NCBI GenBank assembly: GCA_040752395.1
Contig: JBFMHD010000099.1
Location: forward strand, 1-9,755
DNA from: JBFMHD01 sp040752395 [NCBI: Candidatus Hydrogenedentota bacterium]
GTDB lineage: Bacteria; JBFMHD01
Length of the DNA stretch: 9,755 nucleotides
Reading direction: 5' to 3'
The notes beneath the pieces were generated by a model. It made no database searches, was not told the DNA's origin, and worked only from the letters and a program-made list of their open reading frames with translations. A program made the translations under genes and the position numbers. Positions within the stretch are counted from its first letter, which is position 1. Every line of letters starts with the position of its first letter. Below are positions 2,810 to 9,755 of this stretch, in pieces.

Positions 2810-3538
2810 TCAAAGAAAAAACTTAAATGTTTCGGGTTTGAGTTTAAGTATAATTCTATATTCCTCAATAGCATTTAATATATCTATAGATAGTTCTTCA
2901 ATAAATTTCAGTTCAAGGATGTCTTTCAGATTTACACAAAGTGGCATACCTGTGAATATTTTCTTTTTATCATCAGAGAGCTCTGTTTGTAAATAAAGAT
3001 ATAAACCAACCATACTTCCAAGTCCTGTAGCGATACTAATAAAATCAGTTTCTGGATACAAACTTTTTGCAATATATCTTGCAATGGTTTTAAATGAAGA
3101 ATTGTTAACAAGTTCTATTATTTCTTCAAGTAGCACGAATTTTCGTTTATGCGCAGCTAAATCAATCATCAATCCTCTGCCACGTAACATACTATCAACA
3201 TTATCTGTAACAAATGAAAGGTAGTCACCAGCTTCTTTATAAGCAAGTGTCAACAAACCATCAGCAATAAGAAGATGTATAGCTTTATCATCTTTATCCA
3301 TTTCTCTACGCAGGACTAATTTTATAAGATAAAATGAAAGATTCACGAGCTCAATGCTAAATAAAAACCTTTTGTCTTTTTCTTCAACTTCTTTATCCCA
3401 GCCTTTAAACATATGTAAACCGAATTCATATCGTAAAGGTCTATAACTTCTATCCGTAATAATTTTTATTTTTCTTTTAGTATTTGCGAAAGGGGATAAT
3501 TGTAATTCCTTTTCCAATAATTCATAAAATGTTTTCAT
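2810..3538 (-). CDS. Polyprenyl-synthase-like protein lacking the aspartate motifs
   Basis: This is a 242-residue, mostly helical, soluble protein. Its middle resembles trans-isoprenyl diphosphate synthases. IELVNLSFYLIKLVLRR (62-78) sits where these have the helix ELIHxxSLIHDDxxD followed by RR. KAIHLLIADGLLTLAY (85-100) matches the AVLxGDxLLxxAF helix. FKTIARYIAKSL (149-160) matches the KTA segment, and GSMVGLYLYLQTELSDD (174-190) matches GxxFQIxDDxxD. Both aspartate-rich motifs that bind magnesium and diphosphate appear to be lost. By analogy with small non-catalytic subunits such as component 1 of heptaprenyl diphosphate synthase, it may be a partner or regulatory subunit, but this is inference. 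ATG 3538 lies 6 nt after GGAGGA in a doubled SD (complement of 3545-3558). The leader is a dispersed repeat element. Confidence 0.55.
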   Translation of the reverse strand: MKTFYELLEKELQLSPFANTKRKIKIITDRSYRPLRYEFGLHMFKGWDKEVEEKDKRFLFSIELVNLSFYLIKLVLRREMDKDDKAIHLLIADGLLTLAYKEAGDYLSFVTDNVDSMLRGRGLMIDLAAHKRKFVLLEEIIELVNNSSFKTIARYIAKSLYPETDFISIATGLGSMVGLYLYLQTELSDDKKKIFTGMPLCVNLKDILELKFIEELSIDILNAIEEYRIILKLKPETFKFFL

Positions 3539-3544
3539 AGACTC

Positions 3545-3558
3545 TCCTCCTCTCCTCT
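3545..3558 (-). promoter_or_regulatory. Doubled ribosome binding site
   Basis: The minus strand reads AGAGGAGAGGAGGA before the ATG at 3538-3536, so two overlapping SD cores are present. The distal AGAGGA belongs to the dispersed repeat edge and the proximal GGAGGA is the better-spaced one (6 nt). Confidence 0.65.
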
Positions 3559-3735
3559 GAAAAAGTAAGAAGTAAGAAGTGGGAAGTATCAGGACAGGCT
3601 ACAGGCTACGGACTACAGCCGGCTGGAGCCCGAAGCCCGGAGCCAACATATCATTTACTTCTTGCATCTTTCGTTATCTTTCTTTCCGTTATCTTGCTTC
3701 TTTCGTTATCTTGCCTCTACCTATCATCTCTTATG
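3553..3735 (-). repeat. Dispersed intergenic element, copy with short A plus B and C
   Basis: In plus-strand order this copy has the module A edge TCCTCTGAAAAA (3553-3564), four AAGTAAG-type heptamers (3563-3590), the GC-rich module B (3596-3644) of GGCTACA, GGCTACG, GACTACA, GCCGGCT, GGAGCCC, GAAGCCC units, and module C (3645-3735) of CTTCTTGC, CTTTCGTTATCTT and similar words, ending TATCATCTCTTATG. Module B contains the palindrome CAGCCGGCTG (3616-3625). Module C runs 5 nt into the last codons of the upstream gene. On the minus strand the element separates the propeller gene from the polyprenyl-synthase-like gene and supplies the latter's leader. Confidence 0.85.
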
Positions 3736-5728
3736 GCACGAAATAAACTGCTCTATCCTGTATAAGCTGTGCCTTGGGGTCAGGTGGCTCATTGCGGAAA
3801 AGATTCAAAATGACTTTTACTTCAAACATAGTTTTATAAGGCACTTTTCTATAAGGTGTTCTGTAAACCACTAAATATTCTTCCTGAAAATTATAATCTT
3901 TTAATCTTCTAAACTCATTTTTAAAATACGGTGAATTAATATCAAAAAAATTTCCACCTGTCCACTGAGATATATATCTGGCATTACTTAAAATTTTATC
4001 ACTTACAATGCTTATAGGTAGATGCAGTCCTTTTGCAAGGTATATAATTTTTCTGCAAGAATCTTCTTTTAAATCTTCAGCTGTTATAAGTATTACATTT
4101 CTTAAGTTCTTATCAAGATAAGCATTCCATAAAGCTTTATCCAGAGCTGATTCAAGATTTTTATAATAGATGCTACCCATATCAGTTATGGTTTTGTTCT
4201 TCTTACTATCAATAATAAAATAATACTTATTTTTAATACCTATAAAATCTAACTCCTTTTCTAAAACTTCTACTAATTTTTTTTCATTCTCTTTGAGTTT
4301 AGAAATCACTATGTGTACTGACGAAGTTTTATCACTTCTTATTTTTGAGACATCGATTGGATAAACTCTGTTATTATTTTCATATACTGCAAAATTATTT
4401 TTATTAAGGTTTGGATAATGAAATCCTCTGTCATCAGTAACAGTAAAGTAAATGCCGAGTAGATGTTCTTTTTCATAATGAGAAACATCTATTTTCTTTA
4501 TATCAAGAAAAATCCTTTCGTCTTTAATAAGAGAGGGTCGATAAATTCTTATTCTGCTTTTTTCAAGGTCAGATAAATAGAGATAATCTTTATTATCAAT
4601 CTCAATATCAGAAATAGATACAATCGTATCAGAATTAATATTATCAAGAATTAAAGTTTCGTTTAAAAGATTCCCATTTTTCATTTTAAATACATTACCG
4701 TTTTTTGTTACAATAAAAAATAAATCATCTTTAATTGAAGAGAATCCCTGGGGTTCAAAAAATTGAGGATTTTTAAATTCCTGCAGTATCAATCCATTTA
4801 TATCGAACTTCTCTATCCTGTTATTATTCTTATCAATCACATAAAGAAATCCGTCCCTATCGAATAATAAATCACAAGGATTAATAAAGAGACCAGGTTC
4901 TATACCATAACCACCAATCATACTTATGCAGTTGTAGCTTTTATCAAAAATAGAGATACGATGATTCCCGCTTTCTGTTATATAAATATTTTCAAATACA
5001 TCCTTTGTAATAAATGATGGTCCTGATAATTCACCTTTTAACTTTCCAAGCCCACCTATCTCTTTAATTGTTTTTCCATTATAATTTATAATCCTTACCT
5101 TATTAATATTAAATAAACCAACGGTTATTTTATCTTTTTCAAAGAAAAACCCTTTGGGTTTACTCCCTCTTTTAAATTTAAACTCTTTTATTCTCTCACC
5201 GTTCTGATTTAATATTACTATTTCATCAGTAGCATATGATGAGAGATATAAATAATTATCTGAGGGGTTATAATAAAGTGCGACTGGTAACGAAAAAAAT
5301 CCTGTGCCTATATCTTTTCCGTAAATCTCTTTTATTAAAGTATATTTATCAGTAGAAAAAATATCATCAGTTGTACCAATCTTTATGTTTTCCCAGTTTT
5401 TCGAGCGTTTAATCTTCCATCCAACAGGATAAGTATCACCATAACCTTTGTCCTGTATCTTCTGCCAGCATTCATTAGCCTTTTTTGGATCGCCCATTAA
5501 AAGGTTAAGTTTTCCGAAATAATAAAGAGTTTCAATATTATCAGGATAAAAATTTAACGACTCGTTGAAATAATTTTTAGCAGAATTATAGTCACCAAGA
5601 TAAAACGAAATTATTCCTTCATAGAGTCTCTTACCCGACTGAAGTAATTCATAGTATCCTGGTTCTTTAGCCCGGGTATTTGTCACTAATACTATTAAGA
5701 GTAAAATACTGCTAAAATAATTCTTCAT
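3731..5728 (-). CDS. Secreted TPR / NHL-propeller / vWA-like protein
   Basis: The 665 residues start with a signal peptide (1-20: Lys, then a leucine/isoleucine core, then TRA). Next comes a short TPR-type helical region (about 27-95, with GDYNSAKNYFNESLNFYPDN). About 125-400 forms a six-bladed NHL-type beta-propeller; repeated marks are NIYITESGNHRISIFD (247-262), FLYVIDKNNNRIEKFD (294-309) and YLYLSDLEKSRIRIYR (382-397). Residues 420-460 carry the FAVYENNNRVYPI strand pattern typical of secreted vWA-related proteins. A vWA-like alpha/beta domain follows (about 468-600) and then a terminal beta unit (EEYLVVYRTPYRK). The vWA-like part shows no DxSxS metal site. NHL propellers usually bind proteins or sugars, so an extracytoplasmic binding or scaffold role is inferred. 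The start is ATG 5728 with only a weak GGGA upstream. The gene follows glmU after 51 nt and may be in the same transcript. Confidence 0.75.
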   Translation of the reverse strand: MKNYFSSILLLIVLVTNTRAKEPGYYELLQSGKRLYEGIISFYLGDYNSAKNYFNESLNFYPDNIETLYYFGKLNLLMGDPKKANECWQKIQDKGYGDTYPVGWKIKRSKNWENIKIGTTDDIFSTDKYTLIKEIYGKDIGTGFFSLPVALYYNPSDNYLYLSSYATDEIVILNQNGERIKEFKFKRGSKPKGFFFEKDKITVGLFNINKVRIINYNGKTIKEIGGLGKLKGELSGPSFITKDVFENIYITESGNHRISIFDKSYNCISMIGGYGIEPGLFINPCDLLFDRDGFLYVIDKNNNRIEKFDINGLILQEFKNPQFFEPQGFSSIKDDLFFIVTKNGNVFKMKNGNLLNETLILDNINSDTIVSISDIEIDNKDYLYLSDLEKSRIRIYRPSLIKDERIFLDIKKIDVSHYEKEHLLGIYFTVTDDRGFHYPNLNKNNFAVYENNNRVYPIDVSKIRSDKTSSVHIVISKLKENEKKLVEVLEKELDFIGIKNKYYFIIDSKKNKTITDMGSIYYKNLESALDKALWNAYLDKNLRNVILITAEDLKEDSCRKIIYLAKGLHLPISIVSDKILSNARYISQWTGGNFFDINSPYFKNEFRRLKDYNFQEEYLVVYRTPYRKVPYKTMFEVKVILNLFRNEPPDPKAQLIQDRAVYFVP

Positions 5729-5746
5729 TTGTATCCCATCAGTTAT

Positions 5747-5775
5747 CTGTCTTCTGTCTTCTGTCTCCTGTTTTC
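5747..5775. repeat. CTGTCTT heptamer tract
   Basis: Four 7-bp units, CTGTCTT, CTGTCTT, CTGTCTC and CTGTTTT, fill most of the 51-bp gap between glmU and the propeller gene. On the minus strand they form an A/G-rich leader just upstream of the propeller start, where a strong ribosome site is missing. Confidence 0.75.
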
Positions 5776-5779
5776 TATC

Positions 5780-6748
5780 CTAATACATCCGTGTTAAAGG
5801 ATATATTTTTGTGTTATCATAAATAACAACATCTTTTAAAACAGAACATGCACCAATCCTGCAATTCTTTCCTATAATCGAGCGTCCCCTGATAATAACT
5901 CCAGTTTCAATGTATGTATCCATACCTATGGACGTCTCATCTGAGATATAGCAGGTATCTGGATTTTCAAATGATACGCCTTCTAACATAAGAATTTTTA
6001 TTTTTCTCTGGTTCCTTAATTTTTCAACATAAGCCAATTCTTCTCTTTGATTTATCCCGCAAATCTCAGCACTATCATCCGTGGTATAGGCTGTAACCAT
6101 CCTTTTCTTTTTATTAAGATAATAAATAACATCAGTAAGATAATATTCTTTCTGGTCGTTTTTATTTTTAAGCAGGTTTAAAACATTTAAAACAGGCTCT
6201 TTTTTAAAAATATATACCCCAGAGTTAACCTCTTTTATTTTAAGTTCGTTTTTATTAGCATCTCTATGTTCAACTATTTTTAAAACTCTATTATTTTTAT
6301 CTTTGACGATTCTGCCATATCCAGCTGGATTTTCAAAAATAGCTGTTAAAATTATAGCATCTTGCTCTGTTTTCTCATATATTTCAAGTAGTTTTTTTAT
6401 AGTAGCAAGACTAATTAAAGGCATATCACCGCAAAAAACAAAAATATCATCGCTTTTAACTTGCCCACTGTTTCTCGCAGCCATAAATGCATCGCCTGTT
6501 CCAAGCTGGTTTTTCTGAATAGCAAAATGAATCCTTACAGAATCAGAAGGAAAATACCGTTTGATGGTTTCAGAAATTAATTTATAGTCTGGTGGTACCA
6601 CAATAATTATATTATTAATTTGATTTACTTTGCAGATAGTTTTTAAAAGATAACAAATCATAGGGGTATCATCAATAGGATGAAGTACTTTTGGCAATTT
6701 GGTTTTCATTCTTTTGCCAATGCCGGCTGCAAGTATCACTGCATCCAT
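5780..6748 (-). CDS. glmU: UDP-N-acetylglucosamine pyrophosphorylase (GlmU N-terminal type), shortened C-terminus
   Basis: The protein transfers UMP from UTP to N-acetylglucosamine-1-phosphate, giving UDP-GlcNAc for peptidoglycan and lipopolysaccharide. All uridylyltransferase marks are visible: LAAGIGKRM (6-14), LPKVLHPI (18-25), QLGTGDA (81-87), CGDMPL (106-111, metal aspartate 108), GYGRI (143-147), Glu160 in IVEHRDA, EVNSGVY (173-179) and Asn232 in GINQREEL. After a linker helix only about three left-handed beta-helix turns follow (262-322), ending in TRMY. Full GlmU has about 450 residues, so most of the acetyltransferase domain, including its catalytic His region, is absent. The following 51 bp do not encode it. 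Acetylation of glucosamine-1-phosphate must come from elsewhere, or the enzyme serves a salvage route. AGAGGAG lies 7 nt before ATG 6748, within repeat module A. Confidence 0.85.
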   Translation of the reverse strand: MDAVILAAGIGKRMKTKLPKVLHPIDDTPMICYLLKTICKVNQINNIIIVVPPDYKLISETIKRYFPSDSVRIHFAIQKNQLGTGDAFMAARNSGQVKSDDIFVFCGDMPLISLATIKKLLEIYEKTEQDAIILTAIFENPAGYGRIVKDKNNRVLKIVEHRDANKNELKIKEVNSGVYIFKKEPVLNVLNLLKNKNDQKEYYLTDVIYYLNKKKRMVTAYTTDDSAEICGINQREELAYVEKLRNQRKIKILMLEGVSFENPDTCYISDETSIGMDTYIETGVIIRGRSIIGKNCRIGACSVLKDVVIYDNTKIYPLTRMY

Positions 6749-6756
6749 TGTATATC

Positions 6757-6988
6757 TCCTCTGAAAAACGTTGTAACTCTAATAATTCGGGCTACAGGCT
6801 ACGGACTACAGCTGGCTGGAGCTCGGGGCCCGGAGCCTGAAGTCAACATATCATCTACTTCTTGCATCTTTTCCGTTATCTTGCTTCTTGCTTCTTTCGT
6901 TGTCTTTCTTTTCCGTTTCTCAACCTCAACCTCAACCTTAACCTTTTCTTTCTTTCCGTTATCTTGCCTCTATATATCATCTCCTATG
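6757..6988 (-). repeat. Dispersed intergenic element, copy with A, B and C
   Basis: Module A (6757-6786) is identical to 991-1020. Module B (6789-6837) repeats the GC-rich heptamers of 3596-3644 with several transitions, for example CAGCTGGCTG instead of the palindrome CAGCCGGCTG. Module C (6844-6988) starts AACATATCAT and ends TATCATCTCCTATG, like 3645-3735, but is about 50 bp longer through extra CTTGCTT units and a CAACCT hexamer run (6921-6938). It fills the entire 243-bp gap between fapA and glmU, and its module A edge provides the SD of glmU. Confidence 0.9.
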
Positions 6989-6991
6989 AAA

Positions 6992-8122
6992 TTATTCTAC
7001 CTCTAAATCCGGGTTAATCTGCATAAGAATCTTTCCTTCTTTAAGATAAAATCCACATTGTTTTACAGAACTTGTCACAAGATGAGAGATACCAGCAATC
7101 TCAATTTTCACCCCCGGGTAAATTTCATTAAATACCACAACATTACAATACCCTTTGGCTTTGCGTTTTCTAATCTTTAAATCAAGTTCTTTTCTTTTAT
7201 TTTCAGCATCCTCCATTTTCTTTTTCAGTTCAAAATAAAGTTTACTCTGTAAAGCGAGTTGTTCTTTTTTGTCCTGAGGGAGTGTCCTTATCTTTTCACC
7301 CATTGTTTTGATAACCATAATAAGTTTTTCAAGTCGTTTAAGTTTTGGTAAGTCTTCTCTTACAATACTCTCAAGTTCTAAGAAGTCGCTCACCCATTTT
7401 TTCATCTTGTCATTTTTAATAATGATTTCAACAGGTGTCATCTCTTTGTTTCCTAAAAACTTCACAGCCACTCTATCGCCCGCCTCAATTGTAGAGTCTA
7501 CTATGGTACCTTTATAGAGTGTACAATCAATACTATCACTAGCCACTACTTTACTTTTTTTAATCTCACCTGTATTAACTCTATCTTTAACTCTTATATC
7601 AGCTTCTCTGATATAAGGTGATGTAAGGGATGCTGCTTCAATCCATGTAGTTGACATACCATTTATGCCTCCCTCAATAACTAACTCTTCGCCACATATT
7701 ATAACAGCATCCTGTACATAGCCTTTAAGAACTATCTTTCCAGAAGCCTCGACTCTTGAACCTCCTTCAATATTCCCTATTATTTCAAGATTTTTATCAA
7801 ACTTTACAAGAGTATCAGCTCCTTTAATAGACTTTTTTATAGAATAAGTAGTTTTATCCGGATCAATAAATGATCCATCTGGTAGCGCAACCTCTTTTAC
7901 TTCAGCAATCTGTTTAGCTTTTTCTTCCTCTTTTTTATATAAATCTTCAATATCTTTAATCTCTTCATCTATCTCACCATACTCAATACCCCAATCTTTA
8001 AGTTTATTCAATTGTGATTCAGTAATAGTATCTCCTTTTGAGAATATTGGTCCGCCATCATAATATATATCTCTATTAAGAACTTTATTGGGTTTAAGTT
8101 CACTAATTTTAATAGTAGCCAT
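6992..8122 (-). CDS. FapA / DUF342 family polymer-like protein
   Basis: The 376 residues match the FapA (DUF342) architecture. The central part (about 112-235) is a right-handed beta-helix with repeated G-x-V-x-A-x-G-x-I turns, such as NIEGGSRVEASGKIVLKG and the GGING turn at 151-155. It is followed by a charged coiled coil (about 245-325) and a C-terminal beta unit with NEIYPGVKIEIAG (332-344). In some bacteria FapA-type proteins affect flagellar placement or surface structures. The N-terminus (3-50) resembles the small domain that precedes HD-GYP phosphodiesterases: ISELKPNKVLNRDIY, then FSKGDTIT, then LKDWGIEY. No HD-GYP domain is present. It is soluble, with no signal peptide. The ATG (8122-8120) follows directly on the sensor's TAA, and GAGGGGA (complement of 8126-8132) lies inside the sensor's last codons, so translation is probably coupled. 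Confidence 0.75.
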   Translation of the reverse strand: MATIKISELKPNKVLNRDIYYDGGPIFSKGDTITESQLNKLKDWGIEYGEIDEEIKDIEDLYKKEEEKAKQIAEVKEVALPDGSFIDPDKTTYSIKKSIKGADTLVKFDKNLEIIGNIEGGSRVEASGKIVLKGYVQDAVIICGEELVIEGGINGMSTTWIEAASLTSPYIREADIRVKDRVNTGEIKKSKVVASDSIDCTLYKGTIVDSTIEAGDRVAVKFLGNKEMTPVEIIIKNDKMKKWVSDFLELESIVREDLPKLKRLEKLIMVIKTMGEKIRTLPQDKKEQLALQSKLYFELKKKMEDAENKRKELDLKIRKRKAKGYCNVVVFNEIYPGVKIEIAGISHLVTSSVKQCGFYLKEGKILMQINPDLEVE

Positions 8123-9622
8123 TTATCCCCTCAATTTTAAAAGAGATTTATAGATATCTTCAGCTTCTTCAGGATAACTAACAAAACTAATTCTTACTGG
8201 ATTATTATTTATTGTTTTATCAAGTTCTACGGTTAAAAGAGTTCTTCTAATCTCTTTTTTATCTTTGCCTGGAAGAACTGCTATAAGTTCACCTGGATAT
8301 ACACTTATAACGTTTTTCGTAGTGGTTAATTTATTATATATTTCTTCTCTAAACTTTCTTATTTCTTCACCTGATATAATTTCAGACTGCACAACAAATT
8401 TTATAAGAGTTAACGGGTAATCAAGTTCTTTTGCCCTGATAAACTCATCCTTAAGAACCTCAACAAGCAATCTAAATGGTTCATTTCTGATTTTGGATTC
8501 AAACTCAAGAGTTTTCGCGGTAACGATGGCTGGTCCAAGCATCGAACCAAGAATGGTAAAAAGCTTTAAAAGAAAATCTTTATCTTCGAGTTTTTCATAA
8601 TCATTTAAGATTATTAAACCTCCTATCTTATCTCCGGCAGGTAATGGTATTATTACATCGTCTCCATTAAACGAGGTACCACATATATTTTTATCAGATA
8701 ATTGGTCAAAATATAAAGCCTCGGTTTTTAATCCTTTTTCAGATAATTCATTTTGTGATAATTTTTCAGGCAGGGTAAGGTCTTCCTTCTCAAACCCAAG
8801 TTTTTTAAGAAAATCTTCTTCGGATTTCTGATATATAGCACCTGATTTTGCTCCAAACCCTGTCTGTAGTGCTTCAAGCGATAATTGAAATACATCATTA
8901 ATATTATCACTTGAGCTGATTATTTTACCCACCTCATAGATAGCAGAGAGCTCATCATTTGCCTTTTGTAACTTTTCATGAGATTTTTTAATCTCTAAAA
9001 CCATTTCATTAAATACCTGGGCAAGTGTACCGATCTCGTCCCTGGTCCTGGGCGTGACACTCTGATTTAAATCACCCTCTCTTACTTTAATGCTCGCAGC
9101 TGTTAGTTTTTCAAGCTGTTTTGTTAACCTTGTTGATAAAAGACTTGAAATAATAATAGAAAACAATACAAGAATAACCGCAAATTTAACCATCTCCTTT
9201 TTTATCTCGTCCCTTTTTTGTAAAAAACTATCTCTGTTATAAAATATCTCAACGAAGCCTAATTCAACATCTGTTCCTGGTATAATGATACGAGATGCAA
9301 ATTTTTTATATTTACCAAGTACACCCCTTTTTTCAGCAAGCGTTTTGTTTTCGTCATCTTTGACAATTATTAATGCGATGTCTTTATCAGATGCAACTAA
9401 TAGTTCTATAACAGTCTCTATAGTAGAAAGCTCATTCTTTAATATATTCTCAGAAAGGCTCGGCATTAAAGTATTGGTTATAACATTTACTTTTCGTATG
9501 ATATCATCTTCTGTGATCTGATCTAATCGATAAAGAAATATATTCGTACCTATGCTTACTGTTATTATGATAAAAATAGCCACAAGAAGAGCTATTTTGC
9601 CTGCAAGAGTTAGTTTAAACAT
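8123..9622 (-). CDS. Membrane sensor: periplasmic domain, HAMP, GAF and degenerate GGDEF-like domain
   Basis: The 499 residues contain a first membrane segment (8-31), a periplasmic sensing region (32-146), a second segment (147-165) and a HAMP domain (about 166-215, with DEIGTLAQVFNEM at 195-207). A signalling helix (205-232), a GAF-type domain (about 233-372) and a C-terminal alpha/beta domain (about 385-499) follow. The last domain has the outline of a nucleotidyl-cyclase fold. Where active diguanylate cyclases read GGDEF or GGEEF followed by a hydrophobic strand, this one reads VYPGELIAVLPG (441-452), so the catalytic signature is not intact. It has no histidine-kinase or methyl-accepting region. 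I infer a receptor-type signalling protein acting with the coupled FapA protein. ATG 9622 is chosen because AGAGGAGG lies 7 nt upstream. A longer frame from 9676 would translate repeat sequence. Confidence 0.75.
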   Translation of the reverse strand: MFKLTLAGKIALLVAIFIIITVSIGTNIFLYRLDQITEDDIIRKVNVITNTLMPSLSENILKNELSTIETVIELLVASDKDIALIIVKDDENKTLAEKRGVLGKYKKFASRIIIPGTDVELGFVEIFYNRDSFLQKRDEIKKEMVKFAVILVLFSIIISSLLSTRLTKQLEKLTAASIKVREGDLNQSVTPRTRDEIGTLAQVFNEMVLEIKKSHEKLQKANDELSAIYEVGKIISSSDNINDVFQLSLEALQTGFGAKSGAIYQKSEEDFLKKLGFEKEDLTLPEKLSQNELSEKGLKTEALYFDQLSDKNICGTSFNGDDVIIPLPAGDKIGGLIILNDYEKLEDKDFLLKLFTILGSMLGPAIVTAKTLEFESKIRNEPFRLLVEVLKDEFIRAKELDYPLTLIKFVVQSEIISGEEIRKFREEIYNKLTTTKNVISVYPGELIAVLPGKDKKEIRRTLLTVELDKTINNNPVRISFVSYPEEAEDIYKSLLKLRG

Positions 9623-9629
9623 TTTTGGT

Positions 9630-9637
9630 CCTCCTCT
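9630..9637 (-). promoter_or_regulatory. SD that fixes the sensor start
   Basis: AGAGGAGG on the minus strand lies 7 nt before ATG 9622-9620. The protein begins MFKLTLAGKIALLVAIF, a plausible cytoplasmic end running into a membrane segment. The site is formed at the edge of the dispersed repeat, so the upstream frame extension to 9676 is rejected. Confidence 0.8.
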
Positions 9638-9755
9638 GAAAAACATTGTAACTCTAATGATATCAAGTAGAAGCAAGAAGCAAGATAACGGAAGAAGTGA
9701 GAGGTATCAGGACGGGCTACAGGCTACAGGCTACGGACTACAGCCGGCTGGAGCC
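9632..9755 (-). repeat. Dispersed intergenic element, A plus B, cut by right edge
   Basis: Module A (9632-9688) matches 991-1047 at 54 of 57 positions and continues with GGAAGAAGTGAGAGGTATCA. Module B starts near 9714 and runs to the edge. It has one more GGCTACA heptamer than the copies at 3596 and 6789. Module C, if present, lies outside the window. This is the best example of the A-to-B junction and shows that the sequence GAGGTATCAGGAC at 9701-9713 corresponds to GAAGTATCAGGAC at 3583-3595. Confidence 0.9.

Follow-up and report, generated by a model that had tools for sequence, protein, structure and literature searches.

MITEs and the REP, ERIC and BIME elements are small, dispersed, non-coding and intergenic. 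In a SPADE survey of 7006 prokaryotic genomes, heptamers were described as the most abundant tandem DNA repeats between genes across a broad spectrum of species, and the authors, in the available part of their text, see no clear clue to the function of intergenic heptamers (PMC6344855). The available account of Xanthomonas describes intergenic G-rich arrays of the heptamer GGGAATC, which lie nearer the ORF on their 5' side (28 vs. 160 nt on average); convergent pairs number 70 in one of two species and 75 in the other (Rehm et al., 2015; PMC4692102). In Beggiatoaceae, TAACTGA direct repeats are, in the excerpted description, built of one fixed word whose one-base variants are rarely repeated, and canonical ribosome-binding sites are rare beside them (PMC4679880).

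Here we describe repeats in four spacers of a 9,755-nt stretch of DNA (the window, meaning the whole stretch analysed): c1 (988-1047), c2 (3550-3735), c3 (6754-6988) and c4 (9629-9755). A sequence-only reading had seen the same blocks A, B and C in the same order in all four. Repeats are indeed present in these places and resemble one another beyond chance, with identities between blocks of up to 95%, but the order A-B-C is found only in c2 and c3. c1 and c4 have 58 nt in common at 95% identity (local alignment score 101; maximum of 500 shuffles, 26), c2 and c3 have 47 nt in common at 87% plus 35 nt at 89%, and the c1-c3 comparison did not score above shuffles. On the + strand, c1 is an edge cassette of A and a short array of the heptad word AGAAGCA, without B or C, with the end of the + strand ORF 452-979 as the edge from which it is read inward. 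c4 (+ strand) runs from A through an array of AGAAGCA and GGAAGAA to GGCTACA and GGCTGGA, and the window end cuts it inside B. A fourth block, D (AGAAGCAAGAAGCAAGATAACGGAAG), is complete in c4 and partial in c1, and matches a portion of C in reverse complement (25 nt, c3 vs. c4, 100% complementary). The left part of c2 (3550-3644, + strand) keeps only the gene-proximal 13 nt of A, followed by the D-like and B heptads AAGAAGT, GGCTACA and GAGCCCG; its right part is C (3645-3735, - strand), which reads inward on the - strand as GAGATGATAGGTAGAGGCAAGATAACGAAAGAAGCAAG and overlaps the stop codon of gene 3731-5728. In c3, A and the GC-rich B heptads GGCTACA and GAGCYCG (6756-6844, + strand) are followed by C (6845-6988, - strand), with a hexamer array, (CTCAAC)n, inside it at 6919-6944. 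Length and block content vary among the four (c4 being cut short at the window end). GGCTACA units number one more in c4 than in c2 or c3, two copies that are set apart by substitutions and indels and have different intact genes on their flanks. Within this contig, the data support the earlier description of a dispersed non-coding family filling gene spacers.

The Shine-Dalgarno-like end of A stands just 5' of a start codon in c2, c3 and c4, serving the - strand genes 2810-3538 (c2) and 5780-6748 (c3) and, with the start of the last gene set on our own reading at the ATG at 9622, the gene beside c4. In c1 the same end (CTCCTC) enters the 3' end of a convergent ORF and serves no start codon. 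Because the c1 copy abuts an ORF 3' end and no start, the Shine-Dalgarno-like end is part of the repeat.

Much of the repeat DNA has a period of seven. Lag-7 self-match was 0.38-0.64 in six of seven spacers vs. 0.25-0.30 in all seven genes; the fraction of 1000 shuffles as high was at most 0.01 for the six raised spacers, 0.27-0.97 for the genes and 0.97 for spacer 327-451. For c2 (0.476) and c4 (0.437), 0 of 1000 shuffles reached the value. Degenerate heptad arrays make up modules B and D and a large part of C; the blocks drawn as separate modules do recur but are largely 7-bp arrays spanning the module borders. Self-match drops with unit distance in c2 (0.48, 0.37, 0.35 and 0.34 at lags 7, 14, 21 and 28) and in spacer 980-1409 (0.39, 0.34, 0.31 and 0.28), as local duplication would give; the 51-bp spacer 5729-5779, with the unstranded array (CTGTCTT)n at 5746-5776, has no such drop (0.64, 0.70, 0.60 and 0.57). 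The long spacer of c1 also holds an unstranded octamer array, AGAACGCA/CAAAAACC (1077-1134, lag 8), and in its middle an unstranded inverted heptad pair around a short core (1178-1247, within the lag-7 region 1167-1268), made of (AGTTCGG)n at 1178-1204 and (AACTCCT)n at 1219-1247. At a strict threshold (0.70 over 42 bases) the window yields zero lag-7 arrays; looser ones give four (0.675 over 40) or six (0.68 over 28). Intergenic heptamer arrays of the SPADE kind (PMC6344855) should have a period of 7 bp that base composition does not explain and that is present in spacers but absent from genes; the degenerate arrays here have it. The period had been overlooked in the sequence-only reading. 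Anchor A, common at 95%, has no visible heptad pattern.

In both c2 and c3, arrays that face each other frame the spacer; followed inward from either gene edge, they are purine-rich and have words in common. When inward reads of the left edges were compared with right-side sequence, 4 of 5 comparisons exceeded 500 shuffles (one of the four narrowly, 28 vs. 26, and one on the interior of C), and 0 did so on the opposite strand. Purine fractions of the left and right halves fit this polarity in c2 (0.58/0.25), c3 (0.47/0.22, with C slightly above G in the left half) and 980-1409 (0.56/0.40) and are reversed in 2664-2809 (0.47/0.74), which holds the unstranded heptad array AAGTAAGAAATGAGAAATAGG (2729-2771), oriented opposite to the rule; the fit is thus three of the four window spacers above 100 bp with both edges. 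Scored by nearest gene edge, three of five scored arrays point inward, and the exception at 1172-1217 is equidistant from both edges.

Similar arrays occur in other genomes, in a recurring layout that leads from one gene edge through a G-rich array, a core and a C-rich array to the next gene edge. A survey of 135 loci gave 37 lag-7 arrays in 23 loci and 0-3 arrays at lags 5, 6 and 8-11, those with a shorter period of 1-6 having been dropped from the survey, pair and polarity scans; in the first survey, four of nine arrays lay mostly within six-frame ORFs. Between gene edges at picked loci of two related genomes, G253 and G255, 28 of 38 neighbouring array pairs ran from G-rich to C-rich and 0 the reverse. 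In 20 chunks of other genomes, ten pairs included two running C-rich to G-rich and two in the opposite order. The G-rich strand pointed inward in 20 of 23 arrays of G255 and in 40 of 54 at 153 loci of other genomes (per genome, 18 inward, 4 outward and 3 tied), a count made without L134 and L135, loci of G253 and G255. Array-free edges had no inward excess (54 in and 73 out; 498 in and 566 out); that run still contained L134, with array counts unchanged at 40 and 14. The test omits arrays with their midpoint in a called ORF (3/27 in G255, 13/85 elsewhere), lacking a called gene on at least one side (1 and 16) or with equal G and C (0 and 2). Loci L284-303 are a non-random set: they come from genomes in which arrays gave BLAST matches, and were partly positioned on these; without them 24 of 32 arrays are inward (16 genomes inward, 4 outward, 1 tied). 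Loci L225-263, chosen for arrays and outside both counts, gave 53 of 56. The rule was framed after G253 and G255 had been seen, the 133 survey loci having been fetched earlier. Gene calls were longest ORFs of at least 100 aa with starts trimmed past arrays, so edges are rough; the median distance from array to gene edge was -9 to 30 bases by set.

In six orthologous spacer pairs from related genomes, orthology being assumed from matching flanks, non-array columns (the "core", flanking gene ends included) are 94-98% identical and the arrays change. Differences in arrays were seen in five of the six pairs, one pair having none; 7 of 15 array indels are exact multiples of 7 and 8 are not, and in L230/L245 the core differs too, by large indels. 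Among the cores of G253 and G255 most have no relation to one another, an alignment being obtained for 13 of 325 pairs (5 of these orthologous); two small groups of non-orthologous spacers have pieces of core in common (82-88% over 28-120 nt). Fast-changing spacer DNA of this kind is present also in the unrelated bacteria examined. At E 1 the c2 array was matched in 16 of 39 genomes, with 30 places (E 0.004 to 0.7) in G254. A composite G253 array was matched at E 0.001 in 11 of 46, including its own genome and its relative G255. Words common to different phyla are suggestive only, because heptad words match easily. A universal trinucleotide in heptads was considered and dropped: TCA/TGA occurred in 16 of 37 arrays vs. 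8.3 expected (0.001 of shuffles, uncorrected for all trinucleotides tried).

The MetY-like gene (1410-2663) matched 55 loci spread over phyla (best identity 73%) and has 41% GC vs. 29-33% in the other six genes; from this it looks acquired by transfer, and gives no taxonomic placement. The FapA-like protein was found in 0/13 and 1/193 genomes (the one marginal) at E 0.001 and in 9/39, 15/100 and 16/198 at E 1e-5, with identity never above 33%; the GlmU-like protein in 15 of 32 genomes at E 1e-30 (identity at most 39%) and, on plasmids, at no more than 39.7% identity among the 10 of 69 records listed; and the HAMP protein in 16 of 19, nearly all matches being confined to the surroundings of the HAMP domain.

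The sequence-only reading had suggested a MITE-like or REP-like family, which the data do not demonstrate. A non-autonomous transposon would take the inward AGARGCAAGATAACGG words as terminal inverted repeats and A and the GATGATA end as termini, inserting beside Shine-Dalgarno-like CTCCT sites with its transposase located elsewhere. Near-identical ends in several spacers, with A common at 95%, the inverted matches between left and right sides and the Shine-Dalgarno sequence that the repeat itself brings in c1 would suit it, as would the few core pieces shared between non-orthologous G253/G255 spacers; yet the matches fall inside arrays, not at fixed termini, c1 has only one end, and most of A is absent from c2. 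Blocks and lengths vary from copy to copy, so that the constant interior and length of a MITE are not seen in c1-c4 (c4 being cut by the window end), and most G253/G255 cores are unrelated to one another. ATCTCCT stands on both sides of c3 as a 7-bp flanking direct repeat, but c2 has none, and no transposase family appeared among the Pfam or NCBIfam matches of the 8 ORFs scanned. We consider a transposon unlikely. The exact pattern of A gave 0 matches in genome contigs, element patterns gave 0 in each of five scans of viral contigs, and c3 matched plasmids and phages only in pieces (11-23% of c3 covered, E 0.02 or worse). A hairpin or structured RNA, including the stable hairpin of REP/ERIC, was rejected: folds were no better than dinucleotide shuffles (z -0.74, 0.22 and 1.05), and the window had 0 Rfam matches at gathering score.

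The same fold and Rfam results weigh against cis-regulatory leaders, RNA elements controlling downstream genes in which A would be a strong ribosome-binding site and the arrays protein-binding sites (a role put forward for the TAACTGA repeats; PMC4679880) or barriers to transcription leaving a gene. A ends at Shine-Dalgarno distance from a start codon in three of four copies and arrays elsewhere lie close to gene edges, but c1 serves no gene, and arrays differ in most of the orthologous pairs; this reading is improbable, more so than a transposon. That the spacers are collapsed or chimeric products of assembly is very improbable indeed: the window does stop inside B, likely an assembler break point, and the contig end is occupied by an array in 4 of 20 G253 stretches (C179, C110, the start of C80, and C8), but the differing copies c2 and c3 sit between different intact genes, and matching arrays lie within a 3.7-Mb contig (G220).

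We favour, at a probability of roughly 0.6, the reading that the A-B-C family consists of dynamic, spacer-framing heptad mosaics, partly spread as copies from one spacer to another, and is not a classical MITE or REP. It draws on a 7-base period present in spacers and not in genes, on near-identical anchors in several spacers and on inward words that c2, c3 and c4 have in common at their two edges. From other genomes come the inward polarity and the change of arrays next to conserved flanks and core. A gene edge would bear a short anchor, namely A on the left and the GATGATA end of C on the right, and next to it a degenerate array with 7-bp units, its purine/G-rich strand running 5' to 3' from gene into spacer; at the opposite edge a like array would be inverted, the two converging on a core that is nearly absent in c2 and c3. 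Units may grow and shrink in 7-bp steps via slippage or unequal recombination, and selection would remove arrays that enter genes. Edge cassettes may be copied between spacers through recombination or conversion between arrays, which would account for the dispersed A and B blocks and for the Shine-Dalgarno sequence carried by A.

A broader version, which we hold to be doubtful, is that heptad arrays generally grow from gene edges (start or stop, in unrelated phyla) with the G-rich strand outward from the gene, the window family being a snapshot of break healing or end extension in which imperfect 7-nt units would be added to spacer 3' ends before rejoining. The polarity of such arrays would be like that of telomeric repeats at chromosome ends.

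Like MITE, REP, ERIC and BIME elements, the c1-c4 repeats are small, dispersed, non-coding and intergenic; unlike them, they vary in length and have no fold above shuffles, and in the other genomes most cores differ from locus to locus. That no named family had been recognised was fair, but the broad class of intergenic heptamer arrays is published (PMC6344855, PMC4692102). With the SPADE heptamers they share period 7 and spacer location; the available account of those is one of presence, whereas framing, polarity and word mosaics are described here (PMC6344855). Like the TAACTGA repeats, the heptamers lie shortly upstream of start codons; unlike them, as far as that account extends, A carries a ribosome-binding site and the words are neither single nor fixed (PMC4679880). 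A rule by which the G-rich strand leads into the spacer from whichever gene edge is nearest, irrespective of gene direction, would make the heptamer puzzle testable and, together with arrays changing beside a conserved core, would alter spacer annotation, such DNA being by default neither MITEs nor regulators. The layout of intergenic, edge-adjacent, convergent G-rich heptads in Xanthomonas is a good fit for the other genomes, whereas polarity in the window is mixed; in the portion of that study available, the arrays are of one word with quadruplex-capable G-tracts, in contrast to several words per spacer, few G-tracts and non-heptad anchors (A) here (PMC4692102). Read by eye, the words AGAAGCA, GGCTACA, GAGCCCG and AACTCCT have no repeated GGG tracts. 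Convergent G-rich heptads are already published for Xanthomonas (PMC4692102, in the part available), and the cross-phylum rule and multi-word mosaics extend that description.

The 9,755-base window (33% GC) holds seven complete ORFs counted as genes, plus a partial ORF at 3–326. Four of its spacers, delimited here as c1 (988–1047), c2 (3550–3735), c3 (6754–6988), and c4 (9629–9755, at the window end), were described in the sequence-only reading as carrying the same modules A, B, and C in the same order. Blocks are shared among all four: c1 and c4 are 95% identical over 58 nt, c2 and c3 are 87% identical over 47 nt and 89% over 35 nt, and the GC-rich block B is common to c2, c3, and c4. However, A, B, and C occur together only in c2 and c3, with 13 nt of A retained in c2. 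On the strand of the neighboring genes, the blocks run C, B, (D), A and then the start codon. Block D, the fourth, occurs in c1 and c4 and reverse-complements part of C, perfectly so over 25 nt between c3 and c4. A ends in an SD-like stretch. In c2, c3, and c4 this stretch precedes a start codon; its c1 counterpart points at the 3′ end of a convergent ORF.

Among the genes, the O-acetylhomoserine sulfhydrylase-like one at 1410–2663 has a GC content of 41% (vs. 29–33% in the other six), and its relatives, 71–73% identical, lie in high-GC MAGs labeled Deltaproteobacteria, Hydrogenedentota, Planctomycetota, and Lentisphaerae; it was probably transferred. The GlmU-like protein encoded at 5780–6748 (322 aa) matches full-length GlmU models only over their first ~310 positions, so its acetyltransferase half is largely missing.

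Self-match at a lag of seven bases was 0.38–0.64 in six of the seven spacers vs. 0.25–0.30 in all seven genes. None of 1000 dinucleotide shuffles matched this value in spacers 980–1409, 5729–5779, c2, c3, and c4, and 1% equaled it in 2664–2809; against the same shuffles, spacer 327–451 and all seven genes had no lag-7 excess. The best lag among 4–21 was 7 in four spacers, 14 in 5729–5779, 18 in 2664–2809, and 12 in 327–451, while two genes had notable best lags (0.01 of 300 shuffles) at 18 and 12, both multiples of three. Heptads read from the sequence of c2 (AAGAAGT, GGGAAGT, CAGGCTA, CGGACTA, CTGGAGC, CCGAAGC) cross the module borders. Adjacent units are more alike than distant ones in c2 and 980–1409, which was not seen in 5729–5779. 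Because octamer (1077–1134) and hexamer (6919–6944) arrays are also present, seven is dominant rather than exclusive.

Read inward from the gene edge, c4 on its left side and c2 and c3 on their right sides carry AGARGCAAGATAACGG followed by AAGAA. When left edges were compared with right-side sequence, four of five comparisons exceeded 500 shuffles (c1–c2 narrowly, 28 vs. 26; one of the five uses the interior of module C of c3). The c1–c3 comparison did not exceed them, and no opposite-strand comparison came close to doing so. Purine content of the left and right halves was 0.58/0.25 in c2, 0.47/0.22 in c3, and 0.56/0.40 in 980–1409; that of 2664–2809 (0.47/0.74) runs contrary to the rule. By nearest gene edge, three of the five scored window arrays point their G-rich strand inward.

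No copies of the A-B-C element were found in the collections searched (genome contigs, viral contigs, plasmids, phages), and the array class was studied instead, in loci from other genomes. Seven of 55 loci fetched for another reason contain nine period-7 arrays; among the remaining periods between 4 and 30, 14 has four arrays and the rest have 0–2 each. Four of the nine lie mostly within ORFs of ≥100 aa (both strands considered), and some of these ORFs are bound to be spurious. In 80 further loci from four phylum groups, six loci hold nine period-7 arrays (periods 12 and 14, four each; 21, three); the same strict threshold finds no period-7 array in the window itself, but a single array at each of periods 6, 8, and 21. 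A shorter scan window gave 37 lag-7 arrays in 23 of the 135 loci vs. 0–3 at lags 5, 6, and 8–11. One heptad array of ~320 bp (L180:1271–1588, genome G254) passes from (CGGACCA)n to (CGGAGCC)n and (CGTAGCC)n; now and then a unit is a base short. Another (L019:16803–16848) lies within an ORF, directly ahead of what was read as an IYDLTGRR-type C-terminal stretch, so heptad arrays may enter protein linker regions.

In two related genomes, G253 and G255, which share a phylum with locus L040 and have a GC content of ~67% in the parts read, the typical spacer anatomy by eye is a stop or start codon, within a few bases a G-rich array (e.g., GGCTTGA, CAGTAGT, GAGAATC), a core, and a C-rich array (CTACTGA, CTTCCAC) up to the next gene. 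Composite-array matches number at least 24 in G253 and at least 22 in G255 (candidates scored: 17/191 and 17/267), 33 of 39 loci taken from these genomes match, and 28 array pairs have this layout. As only 13 of 325 pairs among 26 cores align at E 0.001, cores are mostly, not always, locus-specific; five of the 13 are orthologues, and eight reflect pieces common to L227, L230, L236, and L247 or to L238/L256 and L249. Across six orthologous spacer pairs, identity is 94–98% outside arrays and 85–99% in array columns. Of the 15 array indels, seven have lengths exactly divisible by 7 (7, 7, 21, 21, 28, 28, 49), the others being 3, 3, 10, 15, 16, 18, 23, and 29. Arrays are unchanged in one of the six pairs, and one member of L230/L245 lacks part of the core.

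Neighboring arrays (≤300 bp apart) ran from G-rich to C-rich in 28 of 38 pairs at picked G253/G255 loci (10 with equal signs, none reverse), in 8/8 pairs from 20 G255 chunks placed regardless of arrays, in 3/6 at survey loci, including L135 of G255 (none reverse), and in the single window pair; 20 chunks of other genomes gave 2/10, with 2/10 reverse. Scored against whichever called gene edge lies closest, the G-rich strand points inward in 20 of 23 G255 arrays (p 0.0005). The 153 loci from other genomes give 40 of 54 (p 0.0005); counted by genome, 18 are inward, 4 outward, and 3 tied (p 0.004). Leaving out the partly array-targeted chunks turns these last figures into 24/32 (p 0.007) and 16 inward, 4 outward, 1 tied. 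Stop edges have 18 in and 6 out, start edges 22 in and 8 out. No inward excess appears in the 50-base edges of spacers that lack arrays (G255, 54 in and 73 out; elsewhere, 498 and 566); outside G255 their stop edges lean inward (267 vs. 220) and start edges outward (231 vs. 346).

In the Bacteroidaceae genome G557 (L019), purine-rich heptads follow stop codons, alternating with a ~89-base cassette that has 21 matches there and 2–5 in each of five relatives, and no Rfam family at E 0.1. Loci L019 and L020 have nearly identical flanks and differ in arrays and cassettes. In L076, L087, and L019 the cassette is palindromic-looking and clustered 3′ of stop codons with heptad arrays between; its stems, GACAGCC...GGTTGTC and GACAATGC...GCGTTGTC, look compensated by eye in a relative.

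The simplest account fitting all these data, to which we give a probability of about 0.6, is a mosaic of heptads that frames the spacer. Units would be added and removed through slippage or unequal recombination, and cassettes at the edges would be duplicated from spacer to spacer. Array change and polarity are seen in other genomes, not in this organism; the 95% identity of c1 and c4 suggests copying between spacers. A MITE is a less likely alternative, in favor of which the inward-facing words could be its terminal repeats and some cores in other genomes are shared between spacers.

Such a mosaic has partial counterparts in the literature. Tandem heptamers are reported to be the most abundant in intergenic spacers across many different prokaryotes, with no clear clue to function (PMC6344855), and PMC4679880 proposes translational control for TAACTGA repeats; the terms sought do not occur in PMC4060949. 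We recognized no statement of a cross-phylum polarity rule in the literature searched, mostly listings and few subscription papers. According to PMC4692102, GGGAATC arrays in Xanthomonas lie nearer to the 5′ ORF, form 70 and 75 convergent pairs, and, where prominent, occur at different genes in two species. Their polarity is the same as here, but concerns one genus and one word.
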